Notes: a model not told the origin generated them from the sequence alone. A stretch of 64,000 nucleotides of DNA from Thiohalobacter thiocyanaticus (GCF_002356355.1 NZ_AP018052.1:248001-312000), one strand, 5' to 3'; counted from the first letter of the stretch, positions 15 to 15,412 are shown. Made by a program: numbers and translations.

Positions 15-1847
15 ATGTGCGGAATCGTCGGAGCCGTAGCCCAGCGTGATGTCGCGCCCATCCTGCTCGAGGGCCTGAAGCGACTGGAATACCGCGGCTA
101 TGACTCGGCCGGCATGCTGGTGGTCACGCCCGAGCACAAGTTCAGCCGCAAGCGCGCCATGGGCAAGGTGGCCGTCCTGGGTGATGCCCTGAGCAGTGAT
201 CCGCTGCCCGGCCACACCGGCATCGCCCACACCCGCTGGGCCACCCACGGCCGGCCCAGTGAAGGCAATGCCCATCCGCATGTGTGCAACGAGACCATCG
301 CCGTGGTGCATAACGGCATCATCGAGAACCACGATGCCCTGCGCGCACAGCAGAAGGAACTCGGCTACCGCTTCACCTCTGAGACCGACACCGAGGTCAT
401 CGCCCATCAGCTGCATCATCACTACTCGCAGTCGCACGATCTGCTCGCCGCGGTACAGGCCGCCGTGGGCGATCTCGACGGTGCCTATGCCCTGGGCGTG
501 GTCACCAACAGCGATCCGGAGCGCATCATCGTTGCCCGCCGCGGCAGCCCACTGGTCATCGGCCTGGGCGTGGGCGAGAACTTCATCGCCTCCGACGTCG
601 CTGCCCTGGTGCCGGTAACCCAGCAGTTCATCTTTCTGGAAGACGGTGATATCGCGGAGATCAAGCGCGACGCCATCACCATCTACGACCACGAAGGCCA
701 TGAGGTCACGCGCCCCGTGCGCCAGTCGGAACTGACCGCTGACGCCGTCGAGCGCGGCCAGTACCGCCATTACATGCTGAAGGAAATCTTCGAGCAGCCA
801 CGTGCCGTGGCCGACTGCCTCGAAGGCCGCATCAGCGGTGACAAGCTGCTGGAGGCCGCTTTCGGCCATGAGGCCTCTGAAATATTCGACCAGGTTCAGG
901 GCGTGCACATCATCGCCTGTGGCACCAGCTACCATGCCGGCATGGTCGGGCGCTACTGGCTGGAGTCCATCGCCGGCATCCCCTGCAGCGTGGAGGTGGC
1001 CAGCGAGTTCCGCTATCGCAAGCCGGTGGTGCGCAACAACTCGCTCATCGTGACCCTGTCGCAGTCGGGCGAGACCGCCGACACCCTGGCCGGTCTGCAG
1101 GAGGCCAAGCGTCTCGGGTTCGGTCATTCGCTGGCCATCTGCAATGTGCCCGAAAGCTCGCTGGTGCGTGAATCCGATCTCACCCTGATGACGCGCGCCG
1201 GTCCCGAGATCGGCGTGGCCTCCACCAAGGCCTTCACCACCCAGCTGGTCTCACTCTTGATGCTGGTCATCGCACTGGGCCGACGCAATGGCCTGGACCC
1301 GTTCGTCGAGGCCAAGATGATCCAGCAGCTGGAGCACCTGCCCGGCAAGATCGATCATGTGCTGCAACTCGACGACCGCATCCGGGAAATCGCGGAGGGC
1401 TTCGCCGACAAGCACCACACCCTGTTCCTCGGCCGCGGTGCCCAGTACCCGGTGGCGATGGAAGGGGCGCTGAAGTTGAAAGAGATCTCCTACATCCACG
1501 CCGAGGCCTACCCCGCCGGCGAACTCAAGCACGGCCCCCTGGCCCTGGTCGATGCCGAGATGCCCGTCATCGCCGTCGCACCCAACAACGAGCTATTGGA
1601 AAAGCTCAAGTCCAACCTGCAGGAAGTCAGCGCCAGGGGCGGCGAGTTGATCGTCTTCGCCGATGAACACGCCGGCGTGGTCGAAAGCGAGAACATGACC
1701 GTATTGCCCGTCGCGCCAACCGATGACTGCATTGCTCCCATCATATTCACCATCCCGCTGCAGCTGCTGTCGTATCACGTGGCGGTGCTGAAGGGGACGG
1801 ATGTGGATCAGCCGAGGAATCTGGCGAAGTCGGTTACGGTTGAATAA
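15..1847 (+). CDS. glmS: Glutamine--fructose-6-phosphate aminotransferase
   Basis: Makes glucosamine-6-phosphate from fructose-6-phosphate and glutamine, the first step to UDP-GlcNAc for peptidoglycan and LPS. The 610-aa product begins MCGIVGAV, giving the N-terminal Cys2 nucleophile of class II amidotransferases, with HTRWATHG following. Two SIS sugar-isomerase domains fill the second half ([10 protein letters not shown] near residue 297, SQSGETADT near 350), and the end [15 protein letters not shown] is the family's conserved C-terminus. Length matches the family. A GAGG ribosome site lies just before the start. The last coding bases form the classical TnsD/attTn7 target, and an element with Tn7-like ends begins 25 bp after the stop. 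A decayed copy of its 3' end lies at 13158-13377. Confidence 0.98.
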
Positions 1848-1867: not shown

Positions 1868-1872
1868 CGACC
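1868..1872. repeat. Target-site duplication CGACC, glmS side
   Basis: Five bases CGACC directly before the TGT terminus of the element. The same five bases directly follow the ACA terminus at 11560-11564. Their centre is 23 bp after the glmS stop, the canonical insertion distance of Tn7. Tn7-family transposition creates 5-bp duplications. Confidence 0.9.
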
Positions 1873-1880
1873 TGTGGTGG

Positions 1881-1940
1881 GAAAAAATAATCCTTTCCTG
1901 GAGAATAAAATCCTTTCCTGGGAATAAACTTCTTTCCCGA
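1881..1940 (+). repeat. Right-end TnsB-like sites, three tandem 20-bp units
   Basis: Units at 1881-1900, 1901-1920 and 1921-1940 share an AATAA core followed by TCCTTTCCTG; the third unit is degenerate. The exact 20-bp period without spacers resembles the packed TnsB sites of a Tn7 right end. The first unit starts 8 bp from the TGT terminus. Confidence 0.8.
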
Positions 1941-2134
1941 TAAGGCCTGACGTAACCAACTGTAAATTCGAGAATTAATGCGGGACGGATGAGACCGACC
2001 TCCACTACCTCAACTGATCGCTCTACCTATCTTTATGATTACACTTGCGTTTCTAGGCTGCGATGGTCCAGAAAGCCACGGTCAGTTCCAAGCTGGTGGC
2101 CAACCAAAATGCTTCCGGCGAGAATTCTCCTAAG

Positions 2135-2169
2135 AGAGGGGAGCAGAATTTGGCCAATCGCTCCCCTCT
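2135..2169 (+). terminator. Stem-loop upstream of hsdM remnant
   Basis: AGAGGGGAGC at 2135-2144 pairs with GCTCCCCTCT at 2160-2169 around a 15-nt loop, giving a perfect 10-bp stem. A weak T-rich run follows. It may terminate transcription entering from glmS or control the HsdM gene. The remainder of 1941-2249 shows no gene. Confidence 0.45.
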
Positions 2170-2249
2170 TTGCATAACAATCTGTAAAATCATAGGCTTA
2201 GTACCCATGCCAGCTTAGCTGTACTCCCAGGGCCCTCCTAAGAGACACT

Positions 2250-3905
2250 ATGGATCACTCAGTTCATAACAAAATCGTATCCTTTATCTGGTCTATTGCT
2301 GACGACTGCTTGAGAGATGTTTACGTTCGGGGAAAATATCGCGACGTCATCCTGCCAATGGTGGTCTTGCGCCGTCTGGATGTCCTACTCGAACCGACCA
2401 AGGACAAAGTCCTCGAAGAAGTCAGCTTCCAGCGCGACGAAGCCGGTCTAACAGACTTGGATCCAGAGGGCTTGCGCGAGGCCTCTGGTTACGTGTTCTA
2501 CAACACCTCGCCCTGGACGCTGAAAAAGCTCTACGACACGACCGTCAACAACCGCCAGATCCTGGAGGCTAACTTCAAGGCCTATCTTGATGGGTTCAGC
2601 GATAACGTCAAGGAGATCGTCGAGAAGTTCAAACTCCGTTCCCAGGTCAAACACATGGCACAGAAAGACGTGCTACATGAGGTCCTGGAGAAATTTGTCG
2701 ATCCACGTATCAATCTCACACCACAGGAGGCGCAGGATCCCGATGGCCGCAAGCTACCGCCCCTGACAAACCTCGGGATGGGTTATGTCTTCGAGGAGCT
2801 GATCCGCAAATTCAACGAAGAGAACAACGAAGAGGCTGGGGAGCATTTCACGCCACGTGAAGTTATCGACCTGATGACCCATCTGGTCTTTGAGCCGGTT
2901 AAAGATGCGCTACCACCAGTAATTACCGTGTATGACCCTGCGTGCGGTTCCGGTGGCATGCTCACAGAGTCGCAGGATTTCATTAGCCATCCTGATGGAC
3001 GCATCCAAGCTAAGGCCGACGTATATCTCTATGGTAAGGAGATCAACGACGAAACCTATGCCATCTGTAAGTCTGACATGATGATCAAGGGCAATAACCC
3101 GGCCAACATCAAGTCAGGCTCGACGTTAAGCACCGACGAATTCTCAGGTCTGCGTTTCGATTACATGCTTTCCAATCCGCCCTATGGTAAATCATGGGCA
3201 AGCGAGCAAAAGCATATTAAGCAAGACGGCGAAGTAATCGATGATCGCTTTATTGTCACTCTTAAAGATTACTGGGGTAATGAAACGACAGTTGATGCTA
3301 CGCCACGTTCCAGTGATGGACAATTACTATTCCTGATGGAGATGGTCAGCAAGATGAAAGACCTTGCAGCCAGTCCCCATGGCTCTCGCATCGCCTCAGT
3401 CCATAATGGCTCCAGCCTGTTCACGGGCGATGCCGGTAGCGGTGAGAGCAATATCCGTCGTCATATCATCGAGCAGGATATGCTGGAGGCCATCATTCAG
3501 CTGCCCAATAACATGTTCTACAACACGGGTATCACTACGTATATCTGGCTACTGTCTAACAACAAAGCGGCAACGCGAAAAGGCCAAATACAGTTAATCG
3601 ACGCCAGTCAACTCTACCGTAAACTGCGCAAAAATCTGGGCAATAAGAACTGCGAATTCTCCCCAGAGCATATTGATCAAATTACCCAGACTTATCTGAA
3701 ACTGTCGGCAATAGAGCGCAGTGCGGATGAAGAAGGTATTGCGAGTCAAGTGTTCGATAACGACGAATTCGGTTATTACAAGGTCAATATCGAGCGCCCC
3801 GATCGTCGCAAGGCTCAGTTCAGCGTTGAAAGAATAGAAACTTTGCGCTTCGACAAGACACCTCGCCTGGTTAATAATAAGAATCAGTTTTTGTCCTTAC
3901 GATGA
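2250..3905 (+). CDS. hsdM: Type I DNA methyltransferase subunit HsdM, C-terminally shortened
   Basis: N6-adenine methyltransferase subunit of a type I restriction-modification system. The 551-aa product has the HsdM N-terminal helical domain (residues 1-150), the AdoMet motif DPACGSGGM (about 229) and the catalytic NPPYG motif (about 309), then GITTYIWLLSN and a PDRRKAQFSVER segment. Close relatives of this subtype usually continue well past this point, but here the frame stops soon after and overlaps the 3' end of the convergent gene by 22 bp. No hsdS or hsdR is nearby, so it is probably an orphan, truncated cargo gene. Methylation motifs are intact, so activity cannot be excluded. Confidence 0.85.
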   Translation: MDHSVHNKIVSFIWSIADDCLRDVYVRGKYRDVILPMVVLRRLDVLLEPTKDKVLEEVSFQRDEAGLTDLDPEGLREASGYVFYNTSPWTLKKLYDTTVNNRQILEANFKAYLDGFSDNVKEIVEKFKLRSQVKHMAQKDVLHEVLEKFVDPRINLTPQEAQDPDGRKLPPLTNLGMGYVFEELIRKFNEENNEEAGEHFTPREVIDLMTHLVFEPVKDALPPVITVYDPACGSGGMLTESQDFISHPDGRIQAKADVYLYGKEINDETYAICKSDMMIKGNNPANIKSGSTLSTDEFSGLRFDYMLSNPPYGKSWASEQKHIKQDGEVIDDRFIVTLKDYWGNETTVDATPRSSDGQLLFLMEMVSKMKDLAASPHGSRIASVHNGSSLFTGDAGSGESNIRRHIIEQDMLEAIIQLPNNMFYNTGITTYIWLLSNNKAATRKGQIQLIDASQLYRKLRKNLGNKNCEFSPEHIDQITQTYLKLSAIERSADEEGIASQVFDNDEFGYYKVNIERPDRRKAQFSVERIETLRFDKTPRLVNNKNQFLSLR

Positions 3906-4540
3906 TGTGATTTTAACTTCTCGCGGATAATTCGGAAGTTACGCATAAGCGAATTGTGTGCGATACCTAGGGTATACTCGATCTGAGTGAACGTCCTGCC
4001 CTCCGAAAGTAGTTCTATCAAACGTCGTTGACGCCTGGTGAGTGCAGTGCGGATTGCAACGACAGCCTCATTGTGGTCAATAGGGCCGAGGTGTTCAGAG
4101 CAAATGGCCTCACGTACACCATACCAAGGCATGCCGTCATCGTCATTCGATAGAATGGATTCGTCTATCTGGAGTTCTTCAGGTAGGGCGTCCCAGACTA
4201 TGGGCGCAGCGAGATGACCTGGCTTGGCATATTGAGTGCCGTCGCTCCTGAATCGGAAAGCTGAACCCGGTAGACGCACAGCGCCGCCAAGATCTCGACG
4301 TAGCTTGAGGGCCGTGGTGAAAGCAATCCTGTGGGCATAAGAGGCTGTTTCGCCCATGCTGTAATCCGCGCTGGCTTCAGCACCGAGCCAGGCGATTCGG
4401 ATTTCTTGGGCTGCATCATCCCATAACGAATGACTGAGTCCAGCTTTGGCAACTGCCAGGCGTATCAGCTTCTGCTCTAAGCCACATGCACAGACGTGTT
4501 CATATAAATTTGCGCGGTCGCTTGGCTTATGGCTGCACAT
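3884..4540 (-). CDS. Divergent sigma-70-like/HTH regulatory protein
   Basis: A 218-aa protein of uncertain role. An N-terminal DDAAQEIRIAWL helix followed by a helical stretch resembles sigma region 2, and residues about 165-210 (ALTRRQRRLIELLSEGRTFTQIEYTLGI) form a convincing region 4-type helix-turn-helix. A basic tail ends SHHRKDKN. The middle part does not match known sigma factors, so it may be a mobile-element sigma-like regulator. It is convergent with hsdM (22-bp overlap) and divergent from the nuclease gene at 4911, placing its promoter in the shared 370-bp AT-rich gap. Fold assignment is inference from motif resemblance. Confidence 0.6.
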   Translation of the reverse strand: MCSHKPSDRANLYEHVCACGLEQKLIRLAVAKAGLSHSLWDDAAQEIRIAWLGAEASADYSMGETASYAHRIAFTTALKLRRDLGGAVRLPGSAFRFRSDGTQYAKPGHLAAPIVWDALPEELQIDESILSNDDDGMPWYGVREAICSEHLGPIDHNEAVVAIRTALTRRQRRLIELLSEGRTFTQIEYTLGIAHNSLMRNFRIIREKLKSHHRKDKN

Positions 4541-4910
4541 GCTCCCTCCTACATGAATTTCTACGCCCTAGAAGAAGTTAAGCAGCTATACGGCCGTAGA
4601 CCCTACTCCTGCTACCTTCCTGTTCAGTTAGTAGCAATTAGAAAGCTGTATGATTTTGTAATAATAACGTATCTTATTGATTACAGTTGGAAATAATCGG
4701 GATATACGTGAAGTAGGTTCTGAAAAGGTAATAATTCTGAGTATTCGGAATATCTAAATTTGCAAGTTTGCAGGTCAGTGACGAATTGTTACAGAATGTC
4801 CACATAGCAAGACGTAAGGACTCAACTCAGGGGAAGGCAAAGACCTTATGTAATCCGCTGAAACTGTATACAAAGATAAGAAATCAAGCATATAAGACAT
4901 AAGCCTAAAA
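4541..4910. other. AT-rich divergent intergenic region
   Basis: A 370-bp stretch between the start of the sigma-like gene (minus) and the start of the NucS-like nuclease gene (plus). It has no credible reading frame. It is the likely promoter region for both cargo transcription units. I see no clear palindromic operator. Confidence 0.5.
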
Positions 4911-5969
4911 ATGCCGATATATACCATCACAGATCAGGGTCTCATACCTATCCATGTAACGAGATTCGCTGACGAGGGGCTGCGTGAACGCGACCACCTC
5001 CAGCAACTGTTGAGAGACCAGATCGAGGTTATCGAGCCCGATATTCTTGTGATCAGTGAAGAATTTGGCAGTTGGGAAGACAGCCGGCGCCGCATCGATC
5101 TTCTTGCAATCGACAAGAGTGCCAATTTAGTTGTAATCGAGTTGAAGCGGACTGACACCGGAGGGCACATGGAGCTCCAGGCAGTCCGGTATGCTGCAAT
5201 GGTCTCGGCATTAACGTTCAGAGGGACAGTTGATATATACGAGCGGCATCTCGATGCAACTGGCGACAAATCGGGTGATGCAAGAGAGAAACTACTTGAA
5301 TTTCTGGAATGGGAAGAGCCTGACGATGATCAGTTCGCGCAAGATGTCCGCATCATCCTGGCAGCGGCCGAGTTCTCCAAAGAAATTACGACCTCAGTGC
5401 TGTGGCTGATTGACCATGGCTTGGATATCAAGTGTATCCGACTGCGACCTTACAAAGACAATGACAAATTGCTACTGGATGTACAGCAGGTTATCCCGTT
5501 ACCGGAGGCTGAGGAATATCAAATCAAGATCCGTGACAAAACCCGAATGGAGCGGGTGTCACGCACGCAATCACGTGATTTCACAAAGTTTGACCTGAAA
5601 ATCAACGGAGAGTTGATGGAGCGTCTTCCCAAGCGGCAGGCAATATTCCACATCATTAAAGCTCTTTGTCAAAATGGTGTCGATCCGGAAGCAGTCCGCG
5701 AAACCATCTCATGGCGCCGCGATGCCCTACGAAAAATTGAAGGCGTCCTTGACGCCCAGGAATTTGAAAAGAAACTTGCCGAACAACTCCTTTCTGAGGG
5801 AAAGAAACCGTATGCAAGCCGCTATTTCATCAATGATGAGGATCTTATAATAGCGAATGAAAGTACGTACGCCGTAACCAAGATGTGGGGGAAGCGTACG
5901 ACAGAAGCGATTAACTTATTGTTGAAAGAGTTCCCAGGACACAATATTAGCTATGAGACCGTTAGTTGA
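4911..5969 (+). CDS. DUF91/NucS-like PD-(D/E)XK nuclease
   Basis: A 352-aa protein with a PD-(D/E)XK nuclease core in its N-terminal third: RRRIDLLAID with Asp63, then NLVVIELKRTD with Glu77 and Lys79, then a helix AVRYAAMVS. This arrangement is typical of DUF91/NucS-type and related endonuclease-fold proteins. The C-terminal 200 residues are charged and mixed alpha/beta and I do not recognise them; they may sense substrate. It is the first of four same-strand genes (nuclease, SIR2-like, DUF3883, HNH) with gaps of 52-104 bp. A role in defence against foreign DNA is inferred from fold and context, not shown. Confidence 0.75.
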   Translation: MPIYTITDQGLIPIHVTRFADEGLRERDHLQQLLRDQIEVIEPDILVISEEFGSWEDSRRRIDLLAIDKSANLVVIELKRTDTGGHMELQAVRYAAMVSALTFRGTVDIYERHLDATGDKSGDAREKLLEFLEWEEPDDDQFAQDVRIILAAAEFSKEITTSVLWLIDHGLDIKCIRLRPYKDNDKLLLDVQQVIPLPEAEEYQIKIRDKTRMERVSRTQSRDFTKFDLKINGELMERLPKRQAIFHIIKALCQNGVDPEAVRETISWRRDALRKIEGVLDAQEFEKKLAEQLLSEGKKPYASRYFINDEDLIIANESTYAVTKMWGKRTTEAINLLLKEFPGHNISYETVS

Positions 5970-6034
5970 TATTATGGTTGGTGCTCTGATAAAGCCAACA
6001 CACCGCATGCTGCTCGATTGCATTAACAAGTAGA

Positions 6035-7102
6035 ATGAAGCGCAAGGAAAACAGAAAGCGTGTGAAGCGGTTGTTCATCTTCGGGGCCGGAGCGTCATAT
6101 GGCGCGTCGGCAGCTCGGGGAGGGAAGCCAGAGCGGCAGACACCACTCGATATTCAGTTCTGTCAACGAATCGAACAACTGGACACTCAGAAGCCGACCT
6201 GGGTGAGTAATTCAAGAGATTTCATTCTCAAAGAGTGGAAAGATCATGTTCAATTTTCGACATTAGGTCTTGAGCGAGCGATCATTCGTCAAATGGGCCA
6301 TATGGACTTCATTGATGGAATCCATCCGCGCCGAAAGAAGAATAACGTCTCTAAAGCAAATTATCTGAATTCGTTGTCACATCTAATCTGTTATGTATTG
6401 AGAAGAGCGAAGGAGCCGAAGAATTCCCTGTACAAGGCATTGGCAGACAAATATTTTTCTAACGATATTGATGACATCGACGACAGGATTATCACATTTA
6501 ATTATGATGAGCTTCTCGATAACTGGTTGCTCCATATGCACACTCCGCAGAGTCTGTATTTCGACCGAATTAAACGATCAAAAGAGGCCGCAAATAGAAG
6601 GACGATTAAATGTGACCATCCTTTAATGATCAAACTGCATGGTTCGGTAAACTGGAGGTGCACCACTACCGAATTTGAGCAAATAGTGGCCGGCAAATCC
6701 AACGAAGAGAAAGCATACAGAATAGAATCAATCTGGATGTCAAAACGTGGTACACCGGCACCACACGACGATTCCTCGCCATTAATAATACCACCGCTTC
6801 CACAGAAACCGATCACAAGAATCGAGTTGTTTTGCTTTCTATGGACAAAAGCCTACGAATATCTTCATGAAGCAGAAGAACTCATAATCTGCGGGTATTC
6901 GTTGCCTGATACAGACAATCTAGCGCAATCCTTGTTTTCGAACTTTACTAATCGAAAGCTTAAGAATATTACAATAGTTGATCCGAATCCCGGGATAATG
7001 AAGAAATGGCGCGATCTAATGAGAAGAAAAAATGTCAACCCGGGGGCGCGTTGGTCGTACTTTGAAAGCTTTGAAGAATATATGAGCGTGATGGACTCAT
7101 AA
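6035..7102 (+). CDS. SIR2-like domain protein
   Basis: A 355-aa protein with the SIR2-like NAD-binding fold: FGAGASYGAS (Gly17-x-Gly19) at the N-terminus, FNYDE (Asn156, Asp158), KLHGSVNW with the expected catalytic His202, and a C-terminal half-site IICGYSLPDTD followed by ITIVDPNP. Known: SIR2-like proteins of this layout act in several anti-phage systems (Thoeris ThsA, SIR2-HerA, DSR) by depleting NAD+. Here no TIR, HerA or Argonaute partner is adjacent. The neighbours are two PD-(D/E)XK proteins and an HNH nuclease. NADase activity is inferred from the conserved Asn/His. Base composition is AT-rich compared with the core genome. Confidence 0.8.
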   Translation: MKRKENRKRVKRLFIFGAGASYGASAARGGKPERQTPLDIQFCQRIEQLDTQKPTWVSNSRDFILKEWKDHVQFSTLGLERAIIRQMGHMDFIDGIHPRRKKNNVSKANYLNSLSHLICYVLRRAKEPKNSLYKALADKYFSNDIDDIDDRIITFNYDELLDNWLLHMHTPQSLYFDRIKRSKEAANRRTIKCDHPLMIKLHGSVNWRCTTTEFEQIVAGKSNEEKAYRIESIWMSKRGTPAPHDDSSPLIIPPLPQKPITRIELFCFLWTKAYEYLHEAEELIICGYSLPDTDNLAQSLFSNFTNRKLKNITIVDPNPGIMKKWRDLMRRKNVNPGARWSYFESFEEYMSVMDS

Positions 7103-7206
7103 GATAAGGTCAATCGTTGACTCGCGGGGAGGGGAGATCGGTCAACTAAACGCGGGCAGGCCTGAATCAAAAGTCAAATAAAGCAGCTTAGGTGGATCGT
7201 TTTCAT

Positions 7207-8187
7207 ATGAAGGTTCTGTTCTGCAATATAGGTTGGATGGAATTCTACCGTGGCCTCACGGAGGCGGATAGAATCATTGGCGGAGGTGCTTACGTCAAAC
7301 AAGAAGGGATGGGGCATGAGGTCTGTAACTTTGCCGAAGACGGTGGAAAAGTATATGGGTACGTTCAGCCCCCTCGGGCAGAAGGACAGCCAGGACAAGG
7401 ACAAATCAATATCGACCGCTTAGATGGGAAGGGGTTAGATGTTGTAGAGGGCGTATTGGTTGTGTGGACAGCCTCCCGACGAGATGGTGGGACCGTCGTA
7501 ATTGGCTGGTATAAGAATGCAACAGTGTATCGATATTTTCAGACCTTTGACCGATTGCCAATGCTCCATCAAGATAACGGCTTGCGCGGTTACCGAATCA
7601 AGGCAAATGCAGCCGACGCCACGCTCCTCCCTTTGGATCAACGCACATGTGCGATCCCGAGGCGGATTAAAGGCGGTATGGGGCAATCAAATGTGTGGTT
7701 CGCCTCTGCACCGGAAAGCCGAGATACCGTTAGAAAGGTTATGAAGCTAATTGATGGGGGGGCAAAAACGCCAAGCAAGAAGCGTTCTCGAATTACCGAT
7801 CCTGATCACAATGCAAAGGTCGAAAAAGCCGCGATCGACATCGTTCGCGATTACTACGAGGAATACGATTATACTGTAGAAAGTGTCGAAACAGACAATC
7901 GCGGCTGGGACCTAGAAGCGGTACTTGGCAATTTGATATTACGAATCGAGGTAAAAGGACTGTCGGGGTCGTCCGCAGTTGCCCAACTTACTCCAAATGA
8001 ATACAAAGCATTTGCTAGAAGATCCACACGTTACCGCCTAGCGATTGTTACAGATGCGCTTACATCACCTCAAATGAGAATCTGTAGGTATAGTACTGAG
8101 AACAATCGCTGGGTAGTAGATGGGGAGGCGGAGTACGAAGTTGGCGTCGATACACAAGAAAGTGCGACGATTAAACTTAGTATTTGA
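7207..8187 (+). CDS. DUF3883 (NO VEIN-like) nuclease-fold protein
   Basis: About 326 aa from the ATG at 7207 (MKVLFCNIGWM), preferred over an upstream in-frame GTG at 7192 because AGGTGG precedes it. The N-terminal half is a conserved-looking beta-rich domain (GHEVCNF, YGYVQPP) that I cannot name. The C-terminal half is a DUF3883 PD-(D/E)XK domain: AAIDIVRDYYEE, DNRGWDLEA (Asp235), then LRIEVKGL (Glu248, Lys250) and a Gln/Asn-rich helix. DUF3883 domains occur in many restriction and phage-defence proteins. It lies between the SIR2-like and HNH genes on the same strand and probably belongs to the same transcription unit. Confidence 0.75.
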   Translation: MKVLFCNIGWMEFYRGLTEADRIIGGGAYVKQEGMGHEVCNFAEDGGKVYGYVQPPRAEGQPGQGQINIDRLDGKGLDVVEGVLVVWTASRRDGGTVVIGWYKNATVYRYFQTFDRLPMLHQDNGLRGYRIKANAADATLLPLDQRTCAIPRRIKGGMGQSNVWFASAPESRDTVRKVMKLIDGGAKTPSKKRSRITDPDHNAKVEKAAIDIVRDYYEEYDYTVESVETDNRGWDLEAVLGNLILRIEVKGLSGSSAVAQLTPNEYKAFARRSTRYRLAIVTDALTSPQMRICRYSTENNRWVVDGEAEYEVGVDTQESATIKLSI

Positions 8188-8239
8188 AATAGACGACAAA
8201 AACACAGCTCTACAAATTTGTAGATTGAGAAGAATTTTT

Positions 8240-8683
8240 ATGGGGCTGAGTCGAAAGACCATCCGAGACATTAAGAAAGGGTTGCTCCCTAAGTATGGGC
8301 ATGGGTACCATTTTATGCCCCTGGTAGATTATTACGACACAACGACGTGGGAGGGTCTGCGAACTGCTGCATTAAAAAGGGACAACGGTGTTTGCGCTGA
8401 GTGCGGCACCTCGATAAACCTACAGGTACATCATGTTCGCTATCCTGAATCATATTTCATCGGTCGTGACAGATACATCAACATTGAGGCGGACGAGATT
8501 GGCAATCTTGTGACGTTGTGTGAACAGCATCATTCCGAAAGGCACTCTCACATAATCCAAAATATCCACAGGGGTGAGCGAGTCACATATCTTTATGAAG
8601 AAGATATGCCACAAGAAGAGATAGATTTCCGTACAGTTACATTTTTTGGAGAGGATCCATCGGAGGAAGATGGTGGTGTGTAA
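8240..8683 (+). CDS. HNH endonuclease
   Basis: A 147-aa protein from the ATG at 8240 (MGLSRKTIRD); a longer frame from 8120 overlaps the upstream gene and its extra residues are low complexity. It carries a zinc-type HNH motif: VCAECG (Cys52, Cys55), LQVHHVRY (His64-His65), then an NLVTLCEQHHSERH segment that completes the metal-binding centre. Small HNH nucleases of this type nick or cut DNA. It is the last gene of the four-gene same-strand run. A GCCGAAA/TTTCGGC stem-loop at 8686-8709 follows directly and may end the transcript. Confidence 0.75.
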   Translation: MGLSRKTIRDIKKGLLPKYGHGYHFMPLVDYYDTTTWEGLRTAALKRDNGVCAECGTSINLQVHHVRYPESYFIGRDRYINIEADEIGNLVTLCEQHHSERHSHIIQNIHRGERVTYLYEEDMPQEEIDFRTVTFFGEDPSEEDGGV

Positions 8684-8787
8684 TAGCCGAAAACTGAGGT
8701 GGTTTCGGCTTGATGTGGTGACCGATCCGAAGGGTGTCGGATGAGATGAGGCAATATCCGCAACTGTCAGATCAAGTCTAAACCATT

Positions 8788-9132
8788 TCAGATTAAGCTA
8801 TGTTGCAGATTTGAAATTATTTTGTGAGCCCTCTCTGCTTGCTCGTCCGATTCAATGAGATCAATTTGGCGCTCCCCGCCGAGTGCGCGATTCGGCTTGA
8901 ATATCCACGATACCGATTTGTCAATATCATTGAAATACGACATTGCGTGATCGAGTAAATACTCCAATCTTCCAGCAGTCTCTGTGTCAGAGCCAATTTC
9001 AGAAAGCCACTGGATATCTTCTTCGATACGATTAATCTTTCTTTTTAGGATATACGTTATGATCATATATGCATGACCAGTATCAATGCTGCTACCCGTT
9101 CCAACATCATTTTTAGAATCATCGTCAGCCAT
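8788..9132 (-). CDS. Hypothetical small acidic cargo protein
   Basis: A 114-aa acidic, helical protein (MADDDSKNDVG start; EEDIQWLSEIGSDTETAGRLEYLLDHA middle). I do not recognise the family. It has no signal peptide or membrane segment. It is the first of four consecutive minus-strand genes in the distal half of the Tn7-like element and lies convergent to the HNH gene. Confidence 0.5.
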   Translation of the reverse strand: MADDDSKNDVGTGSSIDTGHAYMIITYILKRKINRIEEDIQWLSEIGSDTETAGRLEYLLDHAMSYFNDIDKSVSWIFKPNRALGGERQIDLIESDEQAERAHKIISNLQHSLI

Positions 9133-9263
9133 GCGATTGCCTGTGTATTGATGCAGAAGAAAGGTATTGCCTGATTCCGTACCTCTTTCGGAGGATTGCT
9201 GTATAAAACTTGGGCTATTCCAAGCTTTTTACCGCATCATTGTGGGTTTGGGTATAGGCATTG

Positions 9264-9611
9264 CTACGAGTAATCTCCGTGCTCAATTCTTCCTAATAAA
9301 TCATCGACCTGTTGTATACCCTCATCGCTGGTGAGTAGATCTGACGGGGTATGCATACCAAGACCGCGCTGAGGTGAGGTCATCCATTCGGCCGCAGCCT
9401 CATGGGAATGAAATACTCTATCGGCATGTTCATACACAGCCAACACCTGACTTGACAGGTTGTGTCCCCTGGAATCATGTGGGGCAGCCTTTGTAACTGT
9501 GATCCTGTCATTTATCAGGAAGCAGGCTAGTTCATCGCCTGGTCCCAGACCAGCCTGTTTGCACAGATTCTCAGGTAGAGTAATGCGCCGTCTTGAGTCG
9601 AGTTTTGGCAT
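9264..9611 (-). CDS. AbrB-type DNA-binding/MbcA-ParS-Xre antitoxin fusion
   Basis: A 115-aa protein from MPKLDSRRR. Residues 1-42 are a SpoVT-AbrB swapped-hairpin DNA-binding domain (RRRITLPENLCKQAGLGPGDEL). Residues about 65-115 match the MbcA/ParS/Xre toxin-binding domain (DUF2384): AAEWMTSPQRGLGMHTPSDLL ending in DDLLGRIEHGDYS. Usual MbcA/ParS/Xre antitoxins carry an Xre-like HTH; an AbrB head is an unusual swap. No RES toxin gene is adjacent, so this is an orphan antitoxin, unlike the complete RES/Xre pair at 14267-15360. It may act as an anti-toxin or repressor; that is inference. Confidence 0.75.
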   Translation of the reverse strand: MPKLDSRRRITLPENLCKQAGLGPGDELACFLINDRITVTKAAPHDSRGHNLSSQVLAVYEHADRVFHSHEAAAEWMTSPQRGLGMHTPSDLLTSDEGIQQVDDLLGRIEHGDYS

Positions 9612-9863
9612 ATGCGTTCGTGTTATGCAGTAATGATATATCCATAAGCTAAATGGAATCACCATAGCTGATGGAACATAGAGTAACCTCATGAACTACC
9701 ATATTTGCGGAGTTTGCGCCTAATCCATGGAAGGTTGAGTTAAGCGTAATTCGTCACCTCGGATCAGCTTTTTGTATCCGTAACTGTTTAGCACATTGTC
9801 GTTTAGGTACGCGTAACGCATCTCAGTACCATTCGGTGTCCGAATCCCGCCGTGTAGCATTCG

Positions 9864-10025
9864 CTATTGTGGTTCGCTACCGCCTAGACGTGACAGCTGA
9901 CGTGCGCTTTCGCGCTCAATTAGTGCCTGAAGTCCTTTTTGCACCAGACTGACGTTGTCCGATATGCCTGTAAGCCATTTGGCTTGCTCCAGGAGTTCGT
10001 CGTCGAGATTCAGGTATATACGCAT
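9864..10025 (-). CDS. Orphan VapB-like antitoxin
   Basis: A 53-aa reading frame too short for routine calling. Its translation MRIYLNLDDELLEQAKWLTG continues with a helix ending LVQKGLQALIERESARQLSRLGG, matching type II antitoxins of the VapB/DUF2191 kind (ribbon-helix-helix head plus an IERESARxLxRLGG tail). The next 140 bp downstream contain no PIN-domain VapC toxin. It is either a stranded antitoxin or a remnant of a lost module. Confidence 0.65.
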   Translation of the reverse strand: MRIYLNLDDELLEQAKWLTGISDNVSLVQKGLQALIERESARQLSRLGGSEPQ

Positions 10026-10054
10026 GTTGTAATCCCACGGACTTGTTTTGGAGG

Positions 10055-11245
10055 TCAGGTGTCAGATTGATCCTGCAAAAGTTTTGAGTACTCATGGAGC
10101 AAAGACTCGAAATTGTTCAGAGGATTCAGTGATATTTTCACACTATCGGCCCACGTAAGCCACTCTTCTAGGTCCGGACTGGTGGGAATCATGCCGACTT
10201 CCATTCCATGTTTGACGGCTTCAATGAATGATGTAACCTCCTCTGCTTTACGCCAATCACGAGCCTTATCAAATAACTGCTGGCGCTTCTCTTTCTCGAT
10301 CTTTGCGTTACGTTCACGGCGCAACTGTTCGCGGTAAGCGGCCTCCCAGCGCTGTTTATCTGCCTCACGTTTTTCACGCAACTGTCGAGCGGCGTCGGCT
10401 GCATGAATGAATCCCGTCAAGATGGCTTCAAGTTGATCTTCGATCAGAGCCTTATTCGAATCAGACCATCGTGTACGGCTGACCATGCCGTGAAGGTAGG
10501 ATTCAATGCGCAAAGACAATTTACCAGTCGGTATATAGTCGAAGCGCTGAGACACGCGCCACCCAATCTGCCGATCCTGAAGTTCCTCTTCTTTTGATGG
10601 CTCATGATCGACCTGCTTCACTATCTCCTTCAGCTGGAAAAATAAGCGCTCACCATCGATCTCCATGTAGATTGTTTCCTTTCGCTCATCGATCCCACAT
10701 CTCCAGCCGACTTGCTCAGCCAGGGTTAGAAATCCGTGCATAAAGCGATGAGCTCTTGTTGTAGACCCAGCTGTTATCTTGAGATCAAGAACCGGAGGAT
10801 CACCGTATCGTTGGTGAAGAAACCCATATCGGTCTGTAAACTGGTTTTTAAGGTAAGCGCGAGAATCACGGACGAGTGGGTGATATCGGCTGATTCTCTC
10901 AGGCCATTTAAATTCTCTGGCTGCTACTAGTCGTGGATCAGCTGCGTCAATAGTTTCGGAGGCTGCGCTTGATCGCCCAGAATAAGATGATGGCTGAATC
11001 TCGATAGTCTCCAGAGAGGCGTCATCGACTGGCGGCAGCGGAGTGCGTTTGATCTTGTGCCCGGCGGCAAGGCGCTGCCAATGTCCCTGTGGAGGCTTTG
11101 GTACTTTGTGGCGTTTGCATTTTTTGACGAGACCCTGATCGGAGATCCCAAACTGCCCGGCGAGCTTCGTCATCGGCGTAGACCAGACGAGTTCGTACAA
11201 CTCTTTACGAGACAACACTGTCTTTTGAGGTCTCGGACTCTCCAT
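10055..11245 (-). CDS. HTH/coiled-coil cargo protein of unknown function
   Basis: 396 aa from the ATG at 11245 (MESPRPQK); an upstream in-frame start adds 39 residues running into the transposon end and is less likely. Residues about 10-55 (LSRKELYELVWSTPMTKLAGQFGISDQGLVKKC) look like a winged or HTH DNA-binding segment. A beta-rich central part follows, then a long basic coiled coil at about 285-345 (REKREADKQRWEAAYREQLRRERNAK, shown in part) and a helical tail. I do not know the family. It is the last cargo gene before the dispersed left end. Confidence 0.55.
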   Translation of the reverse strand: MESPRPQKTVLSRKELYELVWSTPMTKLAGQFGISDQGLVKKCKRHKVPKPPQGHWQRLAAGHKIKRTPLPPVDDASLETIEIQPSSYSGRSSAASETIDAADPRLVAAREFKWPERISRYHPLVRDSRAYLKNQFTDRYGFLHQRYGDPPVLDLKITAGSTTRAHRFMHGFLTLAEQVGWRCGIDERKETIYMEIDGERLFFQLKEIVKQVDHEPSKEEELQDRQIGWRVSQRFDYIPTGKLSLRIESYLHGMVSRTRWSDSNKALIEDQLEAILTGFIHAADAARQLREKREADKQRWEAAYREQLRRERNAKIEKEKRQQLFDKARDWRKAEEVTSFIEAVKHGMEVGMIPTSPDLEEWLTWADSVKISLNPLNNFESLLHEYSKLLQDQSDT

Positions 11246-11409
11246 GCCGCCCTCCCCCGGAAATGAGTCTGTTGGTGCCGGAAAGGTCTCCTCAGTCCAA
11301 TTATCAAGCCGTTTTTGGGCATTCGGCAAACTGTTCGCGAAGGCAAATGTAACCCTACACAAACCCCAGTCGGATGCTATAATTCATTGTATTGAAAAGA
11401 TAATTCAAT

Positions 11410-11551
11410 CAGGTAAGAACTTTATTCGGATAGGATCTGGAACTGGACGAGCATAGCGCTCTTCCAGGTAAGAACTTTTATTTTTGAGATGGGTAGTGGC
11501 ACCACACAGAATCAAGAGGTTACGTCCGTTCTAAGTAAGAACTTTTTTTGC
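11410..11551 (-). repeat. Left-end TnsB-like sites, three spaced 20-bp units
   Basis: Units at 11410-11429, 11465-11484 and 11532-11551 share GTAAGAACTTT. Read on the minus strand, the inner unit matches right-end unit 2 (1901-1920) at 15 of 20 positions, with the shared pattern GAATAAA then CTT then CCTG. The outer unit ends 8 bp from the ACA terminus, mirroring the right end. Spacing of 55 and 67 bp matches the dispersed site layout of Tn7 left ends. Confidence 0.8.
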
Positions 11552-12388
11552 CAAGGACACGACCTTTCCGGCAAAGAATCGCTCAGTCCAGAGCTTCAGG
11601 CTTTCCTTCTCTGCAGGGCCGAGGAAGCGCTCGACATCCCGGCGTGCCTCATTCCAGTCGATCCGGGCAATCCTGTCGGATAACGTGCCGGCGAGCCAAT
11701 CCATATCCACAGTAATGTGTTCGCCTTTCCAGGGGCCGAACTGATCAAGAGCAGCTTCAAGATGCGGCAGGTTTGGGGTAATGCCCTGTTTCACATACCA
11801 GTTAAAATCGTACCAGTCCCGGCCTTTAATGTAAGGACGACATAACAAGGCATGAAGTTTAAGCGAAAAATTACTGCTCAAATCCTGATGGCAGACCTCG
11901 AAATCGAGCGGAAAATCCAGATAACTATAATCAAACTCTGATCCGGCCGGGGGATGAGCATCAATCTCCAGCTTGATTTTCAACTTCTGATCGCGCTGAC
12001 CTTGATAGAAGGACAGGTTCAGCTGTTGGGCAACTGAATCATCCTTCAGCAGTGCTGTTCTGACGGGCCTCTCCATCTGCTGTTTATCCAGCACTTCGGA
12101 TCTGAGTCCAAACTCCTCCAAACCTTTCAGGAGCTTCCCCAGAAAAGGTTCCCATGCAAAATCGGCATCGGGTTGCTTGAGAATGAAATCGAGGTCTTCT
12201 GAGAATCTGGGCAGCTTATGCAGGATGCGCAGACTGGTGCCACCCTGAAAGGCGGCAACTTCAAAGAAATCGGCACGCCATAGCGAGTACAGTGCGACTT
12301 CCTGGAGAATCTCCTTGAGCGCCTGTTCCTCCTCAATCGGATTAGAGATCTGGTAGCTGTCGAGCCGTTGCTGGATAAGATCAATCAT
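11531..12388 (-). CDS. abiEii: AbiEii/AbiGii nucleotidyltransferase toxin
   Basis: Toxin of a type IV AbiE abortive-infection module. The 285-aa product has the DUF1814 nucleotidyltransferase signature: FQGGTSLRILHKLPRFSEDL, with Gly49-Gly50-Thr51-Ser52 and the SEDLD acidic motif (Ser63-Asp67). Its start overlaps the antitoxin gene by 8 bp. The last ten codons (from about residue 277) come from the transposon end. Joining the flanks across the CGACC duplication restores a C-terminus KVDRLKAL whose TGA abuts the glmS TAA. The core fold lies upstream of the changed tail, so activity may be retained. Confidence 0.9.
   Translation of the reverse strand: MIDLIQQRLDSYQISNPIEEEQALKEILQEVALYSLWRADFFEVAAFQGGTSLRILHKLPRFSEDLDFILKQPDADFAWEPFLGKLLKGLEEFGLRSEVLDKQQMERPVRTALLKDDSVAQQLNLSFYQGQRDQKLKIKLEIDAHPPAGSEFDYSYLDFPLDFEVCHQDLSSNFSLKLHALLCRPYIKGRDWYDFNWYVKQGITPNLPHLEAALDQFGPWKGEHITVDMDWLAGTLSDRIARIDWNEARRDVERFLGPAEKESLKLWTERFFAGKVVSLAKKVLT
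11560..11564. repeat. Target-site duplication CGACC, abiEii side
   Basis: CGACC directly after the ACA terminus at 11557-11559, identical to 1868-1872. It falls inside abiEii codons near residue 276. Confidence 0.9.
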
Positions 12389-13034
12389 TGCCTAATTCCC
12401 TGGCCAGTGATTTGAGGAATGCCCTGACCCGTTTCTGCTTATAGACCGCCTCCAGCGTACGGATTTCAGCGCTGGTGATCCCGCGCAGAAGCTCATACTC
12501 GATGCGCAGGCCCCGGGTCAGCCAGTCCAGACCCTGCCACTCCACCTTGCGCAGACACACCAGGTCCATCATCGCGCGCATGGGGCGCGCGACCAGCATG
12601 GTCTGGTGCAGCCGCTGTTCCCGGTCGACCAACTCAAGAAACCGGCCGGTCTGGATCGCCAGCGGATGGAAGGTGAATTCGCCGAATTCGGAGTGAGAGT
12701 AGGAAAGCGATTTCCGCCCCGGTGTCACGCTGGCCGTGACCCGGACCGCCTCGGGAATCCATCCGTGATGCGCCAGGGCGGTCTCGAACGAGACATAGCT
12801 GCCCGGCACATAGGCCTGGGCCAGCGCAAATGGGTGGACAGGATAATCGCGGAAGCGGCTATCGAGGACATAGCTGCCCCGCCGCAGACGCAACAACTCC
12901 CCGGCCTTCATGGCGCGATTGACCAGGTGATAGCGCCTTTGCCTGCTGCCCGTAATAATCCGATCCAGCTGCTTCTCGTTAAGAATACGATTTTTCAGTT
13001 CTGAATCAATGAGTTGTTCAGTCAGTGTCTGCAC
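12381..13034 (-). CDS. abiEi: AbiEi family antitoxin/autorepressor
   Basis: Antitoxin partner of AbiEii. The 217-aa protein has an N-terminal winged-helix region (RQRRYHLVNRAMKAGELLRL, GSYVLDSRF) and a C-terminal AbiEi domain (YVPGSYVSFETALAHHGWIP, VTPGRKSLSYS), the standard layout of AbiEi. It begins with GTG at 13034 and overlaps abiEii by 8 bp, giving coupled translation. Known: AbiEi represses its own promoter by binding inverted repeats; a 43-bp palindrome lies immediately upstream here. Confidence 0.9.
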   Translation of the reverse strand: MQTLTEQLIDSELKNRILNEKQLDRIITGSRQRRYHLVNRAMKAGELLRLRRGSYVLDSRFRDYPVHPFALAQAYVPGSYVSFETALAHHGWIPEAVRVTASVTPGRKSLSYSHSEFGEFTFHPLAIQTGRFLELVDREQRLHQTMLVARPMRAMMDLVCLRKVEWQGLDWLTRGLRIEYELLRGITSAEIRTLEAVYKQKRVRAFLKSLARELGND

Positions 13035-13157: not shown

Positions 13158-13377
13158 CAGCGTCCGCGGCGGCAAGCTGATCGTCTTTGCCGATGAACAT
13201 GCCGGCGTGGTCGAGAGCGAGAACATGGCCGTGCTCCCCGTCGCGCCCACCGACGATTGCATCGCGCCCAGCATCTTCACCATCCCGCTGCAGCTGCTGT
13301 CGTATCACGTGGCGGTGCTGAAGGTGACGGATGTGGATCAGCCGAGGAATCTGGCGAAGTCGGTTACGGTCGAGTGA
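13158..13377 (+). pseudogene. Duplicated, decayed 3' end of glmS
   Basis: This 220-bp segment aligns without gaps to 1628-1847 (offset 11,530) with 23 differences by my count; the last 95 bp before the stop region differ at one base. That change turns the conserved GTDVDQ into VTDVDQ. Weaker similarity with small deletions continues upstream to about 13105, so the reading frame is broken. With the intact glmS it brackets abiE plus the Tn7-like element. It marks either an older insertion boundary or the displaced resident glmS end, and retains an attTn7-like target. Confidence 0.88.
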
Positions 13378-13387
13378 ATTATGCGCT

Positions 13388-14158
13388 TCAGCCTCTAAAG
13401 ACATGCTGTCTGTGGTGATAAAGAAATTCCTTTAGAGGAGGAAACTTTTCTGGCAAGTCTATAGGCTTGTTTTCATAGTATTTGATCGCGATTTTGTAAA
13501 ACGAGTCCTCTCCAGAATGTTCCACATCCGATACCCGCAGGGTCATATCGTCATTTATCGTGATTAATCCAATGTCGAATGCTTTGTCATGCAGCATCGA
13601 TAATGCTAATCCGTTACTGGGGTTTAATCTGTTTCTCTCATCTGTTCGCCATGGGATTATGTGGCTGGCAACTAAAAGTTCAGGAATGGCGAGTCCTGTA
13701 ATACAGCATCTGTAATTATATGCACTTAATACAGCGCGCCTGAAGAAATTCTGCTTAATCCTTGCCTTTGATTTTATTTCCTTTTCGGTCCCGGAATAGT
13801 CTTCCATTCCTGTTAAATCGTTTTCCCTCGCGATAGGCTGATCATTATTCATGGCGACAATCAGCGCCGATTCTGATTCTATTGCAAAGCTTTCCCAGTC
13901 ACTTTGCATTTCATCCCACATTCTCTTGTCGGAAGCGGATGCGCCGGAGAGTCCCTTGCGCCCTGTGGAAGTTATTGCAGGATCGAGGCTTGCAATGTTC
14001 GTCAATTTCATTGCCAATGCCGAAGGCGTTCTTCCGATACTTTCAGCGAATTTGATGATCTCAGGATTTCTCGAGTGGAGCTTGCCAAAAGGCATTTGAC
14101 AATAAAGACCGAATGCAACCAGTAATTGCCAACGTGTCCATCCTTTATTACCGTTCAT
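13388..14158 (-). CDS. HNH endonuclease (HNH_2 type)
   Basis: A 256-aa protein. The N-terminal half is helical (GKLHSRNPEIIKFAESIGRTPSALAMKL). The C-terminal HNH_2-type domain has YRCCITG, LLVASHIIPW, NPSNGLALSMLHDKAFDIGL and ends YHHRQHVFRG, typical of putative restriction-type HNH nucleases found beside defence genes. Its stop lies 11 bp from the stop of the glmS pseudogene, repeating the tail-to-tail arrangement inferred for abiEii and glmS. Confidence 0.82.
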   Translation of the reverse strand: MNGNKGWTRWQLLVAFGLYCQMPFGKLHSRNPEIIKFAESIGRTPSALAMKLTNIASLDPAITSTGRKGLSGASASDKRMWDEMQSDWESFAIESESALIVAMNNDQPIARENDLTGMEDYSGTEKEIKSKARIKQNFFRRAVLSAYNYRCCITGLAIPELLVASHIIPWRTDERNRLNPSNGLALSMLHDKAFDIGLITINDDMTLRVSDVEHSGEDSFYKIAIKYYENKPIDLPEKFPPLKEFLYHHRQHVFRG

Positions 14159-14266: not shown

Positions 14267-14953
14267 TCAGGGGAAGTCGCTTTTCCTGTAGACATTGCTG
14301 ATGCGCTCCCCATCCCAGACATAACACAGATGCGGCCCCTGCACTGCCGGCTGCAGGACCTTCGGCCTGAACACGGCGACACACTCACCGCCCGGGCCAC
14401 GCACGCTGCTGTAGACGATGCCGTTCGAGCCGGCGTCACGCAGGCTGCGGGCGAAGCGCTGGGCGGCGGCGTACCGGGTCGGGTCGGGATCGTACAGTTC
14501 CGGTAGCCTGTCCTGGCAGTCGGCGATATCGTGCAGTTCGGCATCGATGTCTGAGGCATAACTGCGCATGTCGATCTCGAGCGGGGGCTCCCGAGTGGCG
14601 GCGAGGAAGCGGGCGCGGTGGAAGGCGGTCTCCGCGACCGCGGTCTCAAGGCTGTCGGCGGCGTAGTACACGCCATAGGTGCCGTCGCTGAAGCGGCTGC
14701 CTGTCGGGTTGATATGGGTGAAGGCGGCCATGATGGGGGTGGTGCCGGGGCCGTGGATGCGGTCGGCTTCCGGTACCAGGTGGATGTCGCCGATCTCGTC
14801 GCGCAGGCGGTCGTTGGTCAGGCCCTCGATCTCCAGGATAATCTCCAGGTCCTCGTCACGCGTCACCCGGTCGAACAGGTCAACGGGAGGAAAGCGGCTG
14901 GAGACCAGGCGCCAGGACGGGCACCAGCACACCCGGCGCAGTTCCGGGGTCAT
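14267..14953 (-). CDS. RES-domain toxin
   Basis: Toxin of a RES/Xre (type II) pair. RES toxins are ADP-ribosyltransferase-fold enzymes that deplete NAD+. The 228-aa protein from MTPELRRVCW shows the RES signature: NPTGSRFSDGTYGVYYAADSLETAVAE with the R-x-Y-E pattern (Arg, Tyr, Glu residues), and later SNGIVYSSVRGPGG. The long frame upstream of this start is an artefact overlapping the antitoxin. The start overlaps the antitoxin stop by 4 bp (ATGA), so the two are translationally coupled. Confidence 0.88.
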   Translation of the reverse strand: MTPELRRVCWCPSWRLVSSRFPPVDLFDRVTRDEDLEIILEIEGLTNDRLRDEIGDIHLVPEADRIHGPGTTPIMAAFTHINPTGSRFSDGTYGVYYAADSLETAVAETAFHRARFLAATREPPLEIDMRSYASDIDAELHDIADCQDRLPELYDPDPTRYAAAQRFARSLRDAGSNGIVYSSVRGPGGECVAVFRPKVLQPAVQGPHLCYVWDGERISNVYRKSDFP

Positions 14954-15360
14954 GACCAGCCGCGCTGAGCATCCAGGTACTGGCGGACCACATACAGGTC
15001 GGCGACGTTGCCGGAGAGCATGCGATCCAGTGCGGAGCGGTCGCCGAACAGGGTGGCGTCGTTCGGTCGGTGAATCCACTGATCGGCGGATTCCGCCTTC
15101 GGTAGCAGGATCTGCAGGTCCTTGTAGATCCCGAAGATGTATGACAGCCGTTCCAGCTTTTCCCGGCTCAACCGGGCGCTTTCCGGCTCGCGTTTCCATT
15201 TGAAGAAGGTGCTGCGGGTGCGCTCATCGAAGCCGAGCAGCGTCATGGCCTGTTCGGTGTTCAGGTTCCAGTCCCGGACAATATTGAAATAGGTCCGCAG
15301 CGCGGCACCTGCGGTCCGGGCGGGGTCGCGGGCGAGTTGCTGTTCAGCGGCGGTGGGCAT
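14950..15360 (-). CDS. MbcA/ParS/Xre antitoxin
   Basis: Antitoxin cognate to the RES toxin. 136 aa from MPTAAEQQ, preceded by an AGGAGG ribosome site. The N-terminal part is an Xre-like helical DNA-binding domain (EQAMTLLGFDERTRSTFFKW) and the C-terminal part a toxin-binding domain (DQWIHRPNDATLFGDRSALDRML). A cluster of inverted repeats upstream is the probable autoregulatory operator. Confidence 0.85.
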   Translation of the reverse strand: MPTAAEQQLARDPARTAGAALRTYFNIVRDWNLNTEQAMTLLGFDERTRSTFFKWKREPESARLSREKLERLSYIFGIYKDLQILLPKAESADQWIHRPNDATLFGDRSALDRMLSGNVADLYVVRQYLDAQRGWS

Positions 15361-15412
15361 GGTTGCCTCCTGTTGCCTGTCCGCTCTGATCAATGGTTCG
15401 GCGGGTATTATT

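Follow-up and report, generated by a model that had tools for sequence, protein, structure and literature searches.

A Tn7-type element without transposition genes behind glmS in Thiohalobacter thiocyanaticus

A 9.7 kb element located behind glmS of Thiohalobacter thiocyanaticus was almost certainly inserted there by Tn7-type transposition and is no longer autonomous. It can be regarded as either a stranded or a hitch-hiking relative of Tn7. The element lies in the window, i.e., the whole stretch of 64,000 nucleotides analysed here, which corresponds to positions 248001-312000 of the single-contig 3.23-Mb genome. All coordinates are counted from the first letter of the window.

Element boundaries and ends

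The element proper occupies positions 1873-11559, starting with TGT (1873-1875) and ending with ACA (11557-11559). An earlier note, made from the sequence alone, had reported these termini and the identical CGACC bordering them, and both are found in the sequence as described; the extent of 1868-11564 given there is right only if the two duplications are counted in. TGT...ACA termini are thus combined with a perfect 5 bp duplication. The following features define the ends:

1868-1872, no strand: target-site duplication CGACC, glmS side (sequence)
1873-1940, plus strand: glmS-proximal (R-type) end, TGT and three sites of 19-20 bp that abut one another at 1883-1901, 1903-1921 and 1922-1940 (sequence, motif scan, site spacing)
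11409-11559, minus strand: distal (L-type) end, three spaced sites at 11409-11427, 11464-11482 and 11531-11549 with the terminal ACA (sequence, motif scan, comparison with relatives)
11510-11530, within the distal end: far-end spacer AACGnnCGnAACCnnTTGATT
11560-11564, no strand: target-site duplication CGACC, distal side (sequence)

The six sites are copies of one motif, which point inwards and abut at the glmS side and are inverted and spaced at the far side. Scanning of the 64 kb with up to three mismatches has found five of the six end sites and nothing else, while four mismatches added the sixth site together with two stray ones. The sites lie at offsets of 10/30/49 from the terminus at the glmS end and 10/77/132 at the far end, the outermost repeats being equidistant from their own termini (8 or 10 bp, depending on the register). 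The motif scan and the offsets therefore bear out the earlier reading of the ends, which had seen three unspaced repeats beside glmS, three spaced inverted ones at the far side and equally placed outermost copies as the Tn7R/Tn7L plan. The putative TnsB sites of approximately 20 bp form arrays, contiguous at R and with gaps at L, that are spaced as in the complete relatives described below. GC content of the element is 47%, compared to 65% in its surroundings.

Insertion site

The element is inserted between glmS and an abortive infection gene pair:

15-1847, plus strand: glmS (610 aa), its 3' end being the attTn7 target (ORF list; full-length GlmS is 64-96% identical in genomes of the same family)
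11531-12388, minus strand: abiEii, a flanking gene whose last codons were replaced by the insertion (PF08843, PADLOC AbiEii, empty-site reconstruction)
12381-13034, minus strand: partner gene upstream of abiEii, probably coding for the AbiEi antitoxin, without a Pfam match (position)

The glmS stop codon ends at 1847, leaving a gap of 25 bp before TGT, exactly as had been noted before, and the end with abutting sites adjoins glmS. Both the distance and the fixed orientation are those of Tn7-like insertions, found about 23-25 bp downstream of glmS.

With the element in place, the abiEii product ends in KVVSLAKKVLT. Joining 1872 to 11565 gives an empty site, reconstructed from the window sequence rather than observed in an allelic strain, in which the C-terminus becomes KVDRLKAL and the abiEii stop codon directly adjoins that of glmS. 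The Sphingobium AbiEii homologue has KLDRL in place of KVDRL. Removal of the element raises the alignment score for two of three AbiEii homologues (889 vs 874 and 842 vs 836; 878 vs 881 for the third). Since the natural C-terminus of AbiEii is restored in this way, the gene provides independent evidence for the element boundaries. It also follows that AbiE was located beside glmS before the insertion and is a part of the flank; the AbiE pair, lying outside the duplication, was accordingly rejected as cargo. A gene of similar size precedes abiEii in a comparable position in Sphingobium, Novosphingobium and Agrobacterium plasmids.

These observations bear on the possibility that homologous recombination or an integrase built a defence island at this hot spot behind glmS, which resembles a Tn7-like element by accident. 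The region does show recombination: another partial glmS tail is present 1.6 kb further on, and the genes behind glmS are different in another genome of the genus. However, the perfect duplication, the matched site spacing, the far-end spacer common to relatives and the restored abiEii frame all argue for transposition, and profile searches gave no match to an integrase family among the cargo genes tested; an integrase-borne island would be marked by an integrase gene and att-site repeats. We consider such an origin very improbable.

Complete relatives

A motif search in 369 genomes of the class revealed a complete element in gammaproteobacterium G174. When 84,980 species genomes were scanned for the pattern of glmS end, 22-27 bp, TGT and the motif, five records were returned, including Rhodoferax sp. 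BLA1. The earlier note had called for a search of other genomes for this type of end behind glmS and for a complete tnsABCD relative carrying it; the genome-wide scan has found the former, and the BLA1 and G174 elements represent the latter.

The G174 element includes tnsA (PF08722, PF08721), tnsB (Mu_transpos_C), tnsC (AAA_22, TniB), tnsD (PF15978, TniQ) and one further gene; in BLA1 the genes are arranged in this order, too. The product of the fifth gene aligns with an annotated TnsE over 240-276 positions at 24-25% identity (E=5e-8 and 1e-11). The four Tns proteins of BLA1 and G174 are 46-53% identical to each other, and the fifth proteins 39%.

Like the window element, the BLA1 element (NZ_SZVI01000012.1, about 393.5-416.4 kb, ~22.9 kb long) is located at glmS and has a perfect 5 bp duplication, ATAAC in this case. 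Its offsets, 10/30/50 and 10/77/133, differ from those in the window by a single base at the innermost site of each end. Unlike the window element, it carries tnsABCD and the TnsE-like gene, and its cargo is unrelated. The G174 element is also found at glmS, 24 bp after the stop codon, with a perfect 5 bp duplication (CCGGT). It differs in having four abutting sites (offsets 10/30/50/70 and 10/76/121), tnsABCD with the TnsE-like gene and an HsdM-bearing restriction-type cargo, and is about 26.5 kb long.

The far-end spacer AACGnnCGnAACCnnTTGATT is exactly the same in the window and G174 and has two mismatches in BLA1. The far end of the window element is identical to that of BLA1 at 39 of 60 positions, while the maximum at 108,400 other window positions is 29; for G174 the value is 36 of 60 against a maximum of 30 elsewhere in the window. 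Raw identity of the glmS end (36/70) is marginally above chance, the maximum elsewhere being 35, so this end is supported by its site spacing instead.

Other elements share the same plan. A TnsABCDE element with clpK on E. coli plasmid NZ_KY416992.1 has three abutting sites at 10/30/50, nearly as in the window, with the AAATAAAG core; unlike the window element, it is plasmid-borne, autonomous and carries heat-resistance cargo. The right end sequence of Tn7 itself is borne out by 115 E. coli records that match it, 112 of them over most of its length. Tn7 has the same R-end plan, with steps of about 20 bp from offset 10 (10/30/51/71), and the same glmS target, and its site sequence is related, matching the relatives' consensus at 14 of 19 positions. 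It differs in site sequences, in the number of R sites (four) and in carrying tnsABCDE. Apart from minor variation, the window ends follow the TnsABCDE plan of Tn7, and the element is assigned to the Tn7 branch. The "distinct family" suggested previously was an overstatement: these are Tn7-type sites in variant form, their offsets are nearly those of Tn7R, and the difference lies in the site sequence only.

The relatives are also informative as to whether the element may be a remnant of a CRISPR-associated Tn7-like transposon (CAST), some of which likewise target glmS with TnsD (PMC11406308). Both BLA1 and G174 elements encode TnsABCD and a TnsE-like protein, with no Cas gene recognised in their cargo when read by eye, and profile searches gave no credible match to a Cas gene or TniQ among the window cargo genes tested, so the element does not qualify as a CAST. 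This origin appears exceedingly improbable.

The same type of end was also observed behind glmS in Gracilibacillus orientalis (L060), a member of another phylum. It is accompanied by TnsB-like fragments with stop codons and, by eye, a TnsA-like reading frame, i.e., by a decayed element.

Two further genomes, G032 and G179, were considered as whole relatives and rejected, since each has one end site only. Both have a solitary Tn7-type end behind a glmS tail (locus L031 of G032, reverse complement, from about 2532; locus L057 of G179). Downstream sequence shared by the two genomes starts exactly at TGT, and the preceding 24-25 bp differ, which fits TGT as a true boundary. In G032, the solitary end is followed by a gene with a SIR2-like-looking start.

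Absence of transposition genes

No tnsABCDE gene was detected in the element, in agreement with the earlier observation that no such gene is inside, and no remnant of one was found in the element or elsewhere in the window. TnsA or TnsB of this kind are not detectable in the complete 3.23-Mb genome either. An autonomous element would contain tnsA, tnsB, tnsC and a targeting gene, a set which is lacking here. The element is therefore classed as a non-autonomous derivative rather than an autonomous Tn7-like element, and its sequence and that of the genome show that it is unable to move by itself.

Cargo genes

The cargo comprises the following genes:

2250-3905, plus strand: truncated type I methylase HsdM, 551 aa, NPPY intact (PF02384, PF12161; PADLOC MTase_I; comparison with the Methylobacter plasmid operon)
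3884-4540, minus strand: 218-aa protein with weak sigma-70/LuxR-type DNA-binding matches (Pfam profile search)
4911-5969, plus strand: PD-(D/E)XK nuclease of the PADLOC candidate family PDC-S11, full length, D-ELK motif (PDLC04909, E=7.7e-140; motif by eye)
6035-7102, plus strand: SIR2-like protein with GAGAS, ITFNYD and LHGSVNW motifs (PF13289, E=1.8e-6; motifs by eye)
7192-8187, plus strand: NOV_C/DUF3883 protein, D-EVK (PF13020; motif by eye)
8120-8683, plus strand: HNH endonuclease with CAECG/HH motifs (PF01844 weak; IscB-HNH-like, E=6e-6; motifs by eye)
8788-9132, minus strand: orphan Xre/MbcA/ParS antitoxin without an adjoining toxin (PF09722, NF049845)
9264-9692, minus strand: orphan antitoxin with an AbrB/MazE-like N-terminus and an Xre/MbcA C-terminus (PF09722, E=5e-15; NF049845)
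9864-10025, minus strand: orphan VapB antitoxin without VapC (PF09957)
10055-11362, minus strand: 435-aa protein with no match in Pfam, PADLOC or NCBIfam and no function assigned by them (profile searches)

Over 539 aa, the HsdM product is 78% identical to the N-terminal part (residues 1-539) of a 789-aa homologue encoded on a Methylobacter plasmid. On that plasmid the methylase gene is followed by PDDEXK, S and R genes. None of these partners is present in the window, and the C-terminal rest of the methylase is missing as well, so that a complete type I restriction-modification system (full HsdM with HsdS and HsdR) is not found. The methylase had been described as an orphan; it does lack S and R partners, and is in fact a truncated HsdM. 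SIR2, HNH, antitoxin and the first of two supposed PD-(D/E)XK genes also hold from the earlier list of cargo, while the second PD-(D/E)XK gene codes for the NOV_C/DUF3883 protein.

No close relative of the SIR2 gene was found among 94 genomes of the class or on plasmids. The N-terminal part of the NOV_C/DUF3883 protein matches a Pseudoalteromonas plasmid protein annotated as an HNH endonuclease. Its gene overlaps the HNH gene (7192-8683), and the Pseudoalteromonas match suggests that this domain is joined to exchangeable nucleases. The 435-aa protein has plasmid homologues with 27-30% identity, annotated as hypothetical. Judging by their families only, the remaining cargo genes (PDC-S11 nuclease, SIR2, NOV_C and HNH) most likely serve anti-phage defence.

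The three antitoxin genes at 8788-10025 are of two kinds and have no toxins alongside. A complete RES/Xre pair is located outside the element at 14267-15393.

Origin of the non-autonomous state

Insertion was most likely carried out by TnsABC+TnsD proteins such as those encoded by the BLA1 and G174 elements. By analogy with Tn7 biochemistry, TnsD would read the 3' end of glmS and TnsB would bind the three sites at each end. The element entered 25 bp downstream of glmS with its abutting-site end on the glmS side and a 5 bp duplication, as the observed boundaries, orientation and duplication show. According to the reconstruction, the landing place was the last codons of a pre-existing abiEii facing glmS. 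After the insertion, the element would have been immobile.

Loss of the tns genes by internal deletion after insertion of an autonomous ancestor seems somewhat more likely than insertion in trans, although nothing firmly separates the two. We lean towards the former since truncated hsdM and antitoxins without toxins fit internal decay. The 435-aa gene counts against it: only some 50 bp separate its start from the innermost site of the far end, near the place where the TnsE-like gene of BLA1 ends, so a deletion in place must have stopped very near the far end and spared that end.

Alternatively, the element may be a true satellite, whose tns genes were already gone when the Tns proteins of a different element with matching ends, possibly one on a plasmid, inserted it in trans. 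We regard this as a serious possibility, though with odds below even. Both ends are complete and the duplication is perfect, yet no trace of tns is present, and fully autonomous elements with matching site spacing do exist in other bacteria. On the other hand, the same genome has no helper, no second tns-less copy with the same cargo was found in the searched genomes (only scattered pieces of 66-83% identity and, on plasmids, the methylase alone), and there are the signs of internal decay. The earlier suggestion that the defence package moves in trans is thus unproven, with neither a helper in the genome nor a second copy found.

Tn7-like elements with defence cargo are already known: Benler et al., 2021 (PMC8649781) described 6,549 Tn7-like elements, delimited through TnsB sites, with defence genes as common cargo. 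Those elements were found through core tns genes, so that tns-less ones like the window element would be missed. The latter, with its full matching ends, is therefore a variant which gene-based surveys overlook. Our limited literature search has found no dedicated study of tns-less Tn7-like elements. We tentatively propose, while considering it rather doubtful at present, that tns-less satellites of the Tn7 family exist as compact defence packages with intact ends, moved to attTn7 by proteins of Tn7 relatives that are resident or carried on plasmids, and overlooked by tns-based surveys. Site spacing, far-end spacer and target duplication together fix the limits of a tns-less element to the base, so that a census of such elements is possible. 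If moved in trans, they would be Tn7 satellites and would add another way for defence genes to gather behind glmS; if not, the window element shows how islands become fixed there.

Second glmS tail and neighbourhood

A second copy of the glmS end is located behind the AbiE pair:

13158-13377, plus strand: incomplete second copy of the glmS 3' end (identical to glmS at 193 of the final 216 bp)

A comparable arrangement is found in G032, which belongs to another family: here glmS is separated from a 213-bp tail of glmS by a gene that looks Fic-like by eye, and it is the distal glmS copy that is next to the Tn7-type end. The tails in the window and in G032 start near the same codon and have similar 5' edges. 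Among the matches listed from 166 genomes of the class, a clear internal fragment of the glmS tail is present only in the window genome and G032, a few contig-edge fragments aside; in E. coli, 5,377 places with a glmS tail were found in 5,375 records. As to an integrase island marked by the second tail, no integrase was seen near it in the window or G032, and searches of phages and plasmids pointed to no particular element with only a glmS tail. The simplest idea is that the second tail arose by recombination through the glmS tail.

Genome G002 of the same genus has other genes behind glmS and no ends of this type. Between glmS and the RES/Xre genes, an HNH_2 gene (13388-14158) is found in the window and an unrelated gene in G002 (L026, 1440-2310, reverse complement). 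Since genomes of the same genus differ in this gap, it is variable even without a transposon.
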